Source of the DNA: Hydrocarboniphaga daqingensis
GTDB taxonomy: Bacteria; Pseudomonadota; Gammaproteobacteria; Nevskiales; Nevskiaceae
NCBI RefSeq assembly: GCF_900129825.1
Contig: NZ_FQWZ01000002.1
Coordinates: 62,001-126,000, forward strand
Length of the DNA: 64,000 bases
Direction: 5' to 3'
Below the pieces are notes generated by a model. It worked only from the letters and a program-made list of their open reading frames with translations. It was not told the origin of the DNA and did not search any database. The position numbers were made by a program, and so were the translations under genes. Below, piece after piece: positions 39,619-40,552 of this stretch (positions within the stretch are counted from its first letter, which is position 1; every line of letters begins with the position of its first letter).

Positions 39619-40552
39619 TCCCCGCTCCCACCGGGAGAGGGGCCAGGGGTGAGGGCCTCTGAGACTCAAGCCAGGCTTGATCCTCAAACTCCCTCACCCG
39701 GCGCTGCGCGCCGACCTCTCCCGGGGGAGAGGCAAGCGGGCCGCTGATCCGTACTGCCGCCGGAAACCACACCAGCGGTGCCGCTTTACTTCCCCTCTCC
39801 CACCGGGAGAGGGGCTAGGGGTGAGGGCCTCTGAGATTCAAGCCTGACTTGAGTCTCAAACTCCCTCACCCGGCGCTGCCTCGGGCCCCAACGAAGTGCT
39901 CGCACTTCGTTGGGTGAGTCAAGCCGACCTCTCCCGGGGGGAGAGGCAAGCGGGCCGCTTGTCCGTACTGCCGCCGGAAACCACACCGGCGGTGCCGCTT
40001 TGCTTCCCCTCTCCCACCGGGAGAGGGGCCAGGGGTGAGGGCCTCTGAGACTCAAGCCAGGCTTGAATCTCAAACTCCCTCACCCGGCGCTACCTCGGGC
40101 CCCAACGAAGTGCTCGCACTTCGTTGGGTGAGTCAAGCCGACCTCTCCCGGGGGGAGAGGCAAGCGGGCCGCTGATCTCTACTGACGCCGGAAATCGCAC
40201 CGGCGGTACCGCTTTACTTCCCCTCTCCCACCGGGAGAGGGGCTAGGGGTGAGGGCCTCTGAGACTCAAGCCAGGCTTGATCCTCGAACCCCCTCACCCG
40301 GCGCTGCGCGCCGGCCTCTCCCGGGGGGAGAGGCAAGCGGGCCGCTTGTCCGTACTGCCGCCGGAAACCACACCGGCGGTGCCGCTTTACTTCCCCTCTC
40401 CCACCGGGAGAGGGGCCAGGGGTGAGGGCCTCTGAGACTCAAGCGAGGCTTGAATCTCGAACTCCCTCACCCAGCGCTACCTCGGGCCCCAACGAAGTGC
40501 TCGCACTTCGTTGGGAGAGTCAAGCCGGCCTCTCCCGCGGGGAGAGGCAAGC
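39619..40552 (-). repeat. five-copy tandem repeat array between gltB and gltD
   Basis: Units start at 39619, 39791, 40005, 40219 and 40392 with the core CTCTCCCACCGGGAGAG (copy 1 has CGCTCCC). Each continues through GGGGTGAGGGCCTCTGAG, a small inverted repeat around CTCAAGCC/GGCTTGA, CTCCCTCACCCGGCGCT, a second core of the CTCTCCCGGGGGGAGAG type (shorter or varied in copies 1 and 5) and a GCCGCCGGAAACCACACC tail. Copies 1 and 4 are short (about 172 bp). Copies 2, 3 and 5 carry an extra hairpin of about 42 bp (CCAACGAAGTGC/GCACTTCGTTGG). The last copy lacks the tail. The GGGTGAGGG...CCCTCACCC ends match the repeats inside hrpA. This is not CRISPR: there are no unique spacers. The array fills all but 33 bases of the gap. 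Confidence 0.92.

Follow-up and report, generated by a model that had tools for sequence, protein, structure and literature searches.

A five-unit tandem array of inverted PIT/TM pairs separates gltB from gltD in Hydrocarboniphaga daqingensis and points to DUF559 nucleases as candidate partners of these repeats

The glutamate synthase genes gltB and gltD lie on the minus strand of the window, by which we mean the whole 64-kb stretch of DNA analysed here (64,000 nucleotides), located in contig C4 of the Hydrocarboniphaga daqingensis genome (G000; 3.79 Mb, 99.3% complete); the closest gltD among named genomes was that of Solimonas. The two genes are 967 bp apart, an unusual distance, as the corresponding gap measured mostly 14-160 bp and was free of CTCTCCC motifs in 80 named genomes and 29 relatives, in agreement with the original prediction that gltB and gltD are usually close together. 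As that prediction also stated, the genes are separated by a five-unit tandem array (39620-40547), whose units are joined by four 59-bp spacers. Judged by its sequence, every unit is made up of two PIT/TM elements in inverted orientation; these are homopurine hairpins that, having a mirror third strand, could form a triplex. The features are the following:

38146..39594, minus strand: gltD, glutamate synthase small subunit (TIGR01318, 759.7 bits)
39620..39732, unstranded: unit 1 (short), 113 bp, inverted PIT/TM pair, TM(-) at 39691-39732
39733..39791, unstranded: spacer 1, 59 bp, private to the array
39792..39946, unstranded: unit 2 (long), 155 bp, TM pair with a hairpin insert within the right loop, TM(+) at 39794-39827
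39947..40005, unstranded: spacer 2, 59 bp, private to the array
40006..40160, unstranded: unit 3 (long), 155 bp, TM pair and hairpin insert, TM(+) at 40008-40041
40161..40219, unstranded: spacer 3, 59 bp, private to the array
40220..40333, unstranded: unit 4 (short), 114 bp, TM pair, TM(+) at 40222-40255, TM(-) at 40291-40333
40334..40392, unstranded: spacer 4, 59 bp, private to the array
40393..40547, unstranded: unit 5 (long), 155 bp, TM pair and hairpin insert, TM(+) at 40395-40428
40562..45100, minus strand: gltB, glutamate synthase large subunit (NF008730, 2560 bits)

Units 2, 3 and 5 differ from the short units 1 and 4 by an insert of 41-42 bp which includes a 28-bp hairpin, and this division into short and long forms is the one originally described; however, the two forms do not alternate, the actual order being short-long-long-short-long (S-L-L-S-L). 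The copies had also been considered nearly identical, and hence the product of recent amplification or gene conversion, but the units share just 86.7-96.1% identity and the spacers 84.7-98.3%, so that near-identity does not hold and a very recent amplification is not established. In unit 1, a single base of the left hairpin is altered (CCGCTCCC). The palindrome CCTCTCCCNNNGGGAGAGG was matched 14 times in the window versus 0.00 in shuffles, and a chance origin of the array palindromes is excluded.

A literature lookup by sequence pointed to the intrastrand triplex motifs TM_ECO/PIT. These are homopurine hairpins in which an antiparallel third strand mirrors the purine arm, G lying on G and A or T on A, with loops of 1-6 nt (PMC4666352). 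The left TM of the units reads CCCCTCTCCC-ACC-GGGAGAGGGG-CYA-GGGGTGAGGG, with C(T/C)A as the second loop; its third strand is a mirror image of the purine arm in which A or T lies on A, its loops are 3 and 3 nt long, and by the published rules (PMC4666352) it has 10 class II triads; unit 1, with its altered stem base, has 9. The right TM lies in inverted orientation and carries a G+C hairpin as second loop; its stem and third strand are kept, with 8 triads, and the second loop of about 15 nt, or more than 50 nt in the long units, goes beyond the 1-6 nt rule. The literal TM_ECO consensus, with a 3-nt second loop between 9-mers, is not matched, as the 3-nt second loop of the array sits between 10-mers, which corresponds to 5 nt between 9-mers. 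All units join a CYA-loop TM and a hairpin-loop TM in a close inverted pair, and the inverted TM pairs of E. coli combine types A and B (PMC4666352). The array and PIT/TM_ECO (Hoyne and Maher; Holder et al. 2015, PMC4666352) therefore have in common the hairpin-plus-mirror-third-strand grammar, an almost equal sequence (GGGAGAGGG ... GGGTGAGGG) and the inverted pairing of two TM types, whereas the five-unit tandem arrangement with private spacers, the right second loop formed by a hairpin (or a 50+ nt insert), and the linkage to DUF559 described below are particular to our case, no mobility gene being associated with these motifs in the literature. Triplex formation in vitro has been published for TM_ECO only, and DMS footprinting in E. 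coli did not support its formation in vivo (PMC4666352). Neither shuffled windows nor the gltD regions of 80 genomes (1.11 Mb) contained a single motif by our strict TM finder.

The spacer is present in 4 copies genome-wide and the insert in 3, every one of them inside the gltBD array. As both are private to this site, the TM pair and its flanking DNA were multiplied in place, that is, the array is a TM-pair array amplified locally; spacer and insert as dispersed elements in their own right were ruled out. Elsewhere, PIT/TM elements occupy many unrelated sites of the genome, some inside coding genes, and 102 CTCTCCC palindromes were counted, many in tandem, versus none for the reversed control. 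At the other arrays examined (L158-L169, L292-L294), self-repeat lags fell for the most part within 155-195 bp. C4:611 kb had a lag of 174, C5:53 kb lags of 171 and 174, and C5:64 kb one of 185; further lags were 177 at two C9 locations, 160-161 at C9:295 kb and C4:270 kb, 175 at C6, 165 and 171 at C13, and 249 beside hrpA. The spacers at several of these arrays are unlike the gltBD spacer, and the similarity of the periods despite this may indicate a process that sets the length. Exact repeat copy numbers, also that of the gltBD array, are uncertain, since runs of N interrupt other arrays of this draft assembly (L159, L163, L166, L169). A pyruvate dehydrogenase E2-like protein (L160:4768-6000 = G000:C5:68.6-69.8 kb) was also seen to carry two in-frame TM pairs, located in the linkers after each of its two lipoyl domains, apparently through joint duplication of TM pair and lipoyl domain with a 378-bp period.

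In the congener G001 (L084), the gltB-gltD gap contains one TM pair of another stem (CCCTCCCCC-GCGTGC-GGGGGAGGG-CCA-GGGTGGGGG), which means that such elements reached this site at least twice or that the stem changed there. As a separate observation, the final ~27 gltD codons recur in tandem 3' of the gene in several relatives (L088:2916-3380; L089; L092 = L004; L085), and G013 holds three extra copies of the gltD 3' codons with a 154-bp period.

A second TM array of the window lies about 10 kb from the gltBD array, in an hrpA-like ORF that also contains a DUF559 domain:

27036..32138, minus strand: hrpA-like RNA helicase ORF with the DUF559 domain and TM repeats in frame (Pfam DEAD, Helicase_C, HA2_N, OB_NTP_bind, DUF3418, DUF559)
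29527..29891, unstranded: four strict TMs beside DUF559, in two inverted pairs with a tandem period of 249 bp
29901..30218, minus strand: predicted DUF559 (Vsr-like/EDxHD) nuclease domain (PF04480 5e-38)

These four TMs have a stem and third strand identical to the gltBD array type, and this DUF559 has intact TMs on one side only. The hrpA of the congener G003 (L197) carries a matching in-frame DUF559/TM insertion; a second candidate insertion (L225) was dropped, as similarity to HrpA was absent outside DUF559. Translation of the TMs as part of the ORF would give SPGPSGHPLPAGEG-like stretches. The domain retains all conserved residues (E15 D44 E55 D57 H61 D70 R73 R86 N89) and is predicted to be a Vsr-like/EDxHD nuclease. 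In profile searches against structures, DUF559 matched 3HRL (4e-38) and 3R3P (9e-5), with Vsr 1CW0 at only 0.68. The mobile-intron nuclease 3R3P is, we take it, I-Bth0305I, for which we know of no TM repeats. I-Bth0305I is an EDxHD homing endonuclease whose nuclease domain is related to ours by the profile search, although this phage homing enzyme is encoded by an intron and has additional DNA-binding regions (PMC3943268). The same domain with all conserved residues is found in the structure 3HRL, in E. coli YcjD, a predicted Vsr-related nuclease (PMC1189080), and in the Caulobacter protein VsrA, a putative mismatch-repair nuclease that causes DNA damage when its methylase is absent (PMC12907096); in the accessible portions of these two papers, the proteins are described as a predicted nuclease and a putative mismatch repair enzyme, with flanking TMs unmentioned. 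Recombination hotspots of Legionella include DUF559 segments (PMC12308824). The papers naming DUF559 that were covered, mostly non-subscription ones, made no mention of intrastrand triplex or PIT elements, and priority is not claimed.

Given that this TM array adjoins DUF559, we searched for TMs flanking DUF559 genes in a first set of 53 full-length loci, taken from relatives and an even sample of the phylum, and in an extended set of 89 loci across Pseudomonadota, which added copies from multi-copy genomes. A perfect TM at a distance of 160 bp or less was found at 48/53 DUF559 loci versus 0/30 RAYT loci of relatives, 3/29 gltD loci and none in shuffles, while positions 900 bp off the same DUF559 loci had one in 4/53 and 2/53 cases. 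In the extended set, 74 of the 89 loci had a perfect TM and 40 showed a left (+) and a right (-) TM; the strict finder detected no TM at the remaining 15. Furthermore, five or more palindromes were present in 22/24 DUF559-positive relatives versus 5/37 negative ones (p = 8e-10) and, within the family, in 20/22 versus 4/15 (p = 9e-5), both by Fisher tests that ignore kinship; five relatives lacking DUF559 still had 6-31 palindromes each.

The two TMs flanking a DUF559 gene are of matched type. Stem and third strand were equal on both sides at 35 of the 40 loci (shuffled mean 12.0, maximum 22 of 5000), and in six multi-locus genomes the left/right match was complete (20/20; within-genome shuffle mean 9.8, maximum 18), although the loci of one genome were often of different types, as in G084 (GGGAGAGG, AGGGAGGG, GGGGAGAG, GGGAGGGG, GGGGGAGG). 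On the DUF559 protein tree, the stem type required 22 changes, versus 33.6 after shuffling and 28.1 (minimum 24) if types were shuffled only within genomes. Stem type thus follows the DUF559 lineage, with the kinship of orthologous loci contributing to the signal on the tree. The left/right matching inside genomes is independent of orthologous ancestry, and homogenisation of left and right TMs by gene conversion could be another source of it. The third strand was perfect for its own stem in 151/167 hairpins near DUF559, versus 8% for foreign stems; a direct-repeat control was also perfect in 100/167, because the stems are nearly mirror-symmetric, and it is therefore the covariation, and not mirror orientation alone, that is informative. 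Paralogous DUF559-locus alignments within genomes were few and 67-72% identical, and no near-identical DUF559 copies bounded by the TMs were found in any one genome, nor any mobilisation event with two near-identical copies and a clean empty site.

The hairpins had originally been proposed to attenuate gltD or to stabilise gltB mRNA, a role for which the array would have been retained. Its RNA folding is indeed very strong (z = -16.5), as anticipated, and the array is placed within the operon, ~25 bp from the gltD start, which makes an independent promoter downstream of it almost impossible; no promoter was found in the array or between the array and gltD. Transcription of gltD thus probably crosses the array or starts within it, and gltD dosage or gltBD expression might be affected. 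On the other hand, no terminator-like site (G+C hairpin followed by a T run) was found in the array versus 1.2 in shuffles, elements of this kind also occur at many unrelated genome sites, and PIT elements have no promoter or terminator activity according to earlier studies quoted in PMC4666352. The gltBD gaps of relatives lack the array; copy number is thus not constant across relatives, contrary to the condition set beforehand for rejecting this role. Attenuation is thus a weak reading, and we regard retention for an expression role as improbable; Rfam families gave only weak sub-threshold matches in the window, with none above the gathering score. The inverted-pair architecture and tandem clusters also resemble REPINs, short palindromic repeats whose single-domain gene is flanked on both sides by its own cognate repeat type (PMC3116915, PMC3733652), and the units might have been moved by a RAYT since lost from the genome. 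We give this almost no credence: Y1_Tnp (RAYT, PF01797) genes are absent from the 99.3% complete genome and also from G002, despite its 190 palindromes, the motif is missing from all 30 RAYT loci, and RAYT presence showed no association with palindrome abundance across genomes (p = 0.78, Fisher, ignoring kinship). RAYT was accordingly rejected as the partner gene. In contrast to REPIN/RAYT systems, no Y1 HUH transposase is found here, no GTAG or CGTC tag was read by eye beside the hairpins of the array units, the linked gene encodes a Vsr-like EDxHD nuclease, and the repeat has a third strand.

The array consists of tandem TM pairs with private flanks, and we consider it fairly probable that TM pairs are non-autonomous partners of DUF559, a one-domain Vsr-like (EDxHD/PD-(D/E)XK) nuclease, as REPINs are of RAYT. 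Speaking against this partnership are the 15 DUF559 loci with no TM by the strict finder, the five palindrome-bearing relatives without DUF559, the failure to find a mobilisation event, the DMS footprints in E. coli and the putative mismatch-repair role of the Caulobacter protein. The array could instead come from structure-induced replication slippage alone at triplex-prone DNA, with no dedicated enzyme, as proposed for TM-linked instability; the private spacers point to local amplification and E. coli strains show instability at TM loci (PMC4666352), but the dispersed TM pairs, the DUF559 linkage, the matched flanks and the dependence of stem on lineage are left unexplained, and as a full account slippage seems to us doubtful. 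Somewhat less likely still is that DUF559 is a hitchhiking homing-type nuclease that inserts into TM pairs, as IS do into REPs, with TMs spreading by other means and DUF559 having no direct role in the array. DUF559 sits between paired TMs, a profile search relates it to the EDxHD homing endonuclease 3R3P at 9e-5 (PMC3943268), TMs occur in genomes lacking DUF559, and E. coli K-12 has 23 TMs (PMC4666352) but one ycjD; a nuclease using TMs as a landing site could produce this picture. However, the stem follows the DUF559 lineage and each copy has a matched pair, which demands cognate specificity, and TM abundance genome-wide depends on the presence of DUF559.

According to the partnership of TM pairs and DUF559 that we favour, DUF559 would recognise the hairpin together with the mirror third strand characteristic of its TM type, probably when the TM is single-stranded or extruded in the course of replication or repair, and would nick it, upon which TM pairs would be copied and inserted; the array units would be its non-autonomous derivatives. 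TM pairs would sometimes be amplified in tandem along with 50-70 bp of adjacent DNA. Between gltB and gltD, we infer that a TM pair entered the short gap and was then amplified locally, with the operon still transcribed across the structured spacer and the array nearly neutral for gltBD. We see an even chance for the broader proposal that PIT/TM repeats and DUF559/YcjD are two halves of a widespread mobile system, in which nuclease lineages each read their own three-strand 'password', dispersing and tandemly amplifying pairs without a transposase; if true, this would be a second route to REPIN-like repeat populations.

PIT/TM repeats have so far been orphans in E. coli and many other bacteria, and the link to DUF559 offers them a candidate enzyme, as well as a candidate substrate for a large uncharacterised nuclease family; the covariation of stem and third strand offers natural evidence for recognition of a three-stranded structure. 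In E. coli, the DUF559 gene ycjD has sapF and fabI as annotated neighbours, and TM_ECO no. 9 (PMC4666352) lies at MG1655 1351205-1351239, ~170 bp past the ycjD end; a second TM directly 3' of ycjD is decayed in K-12 and intact in strain KE47 (L239), the region being L251:1206-1761 = MG1655 1351205-1351760. Furthermore, the finder or inspection by eye placed TM-type hairpins at the borders of DUF559 in plasmids from Azospirillum, Sinorhizobium, Deinococcus, Photobacterium, Sphingomonas, Methylobacterium and three cyanobacteria, and the linkage cases span Pseudomonadota, Cyanobacteriota and Deinococcota. On the Sphingomonas plasmid (L249:2431-2881), the TM-flanked DUF559 unit separates the genes for two transhydrogenase subunits, a site comparable to that between gltB and gltD.
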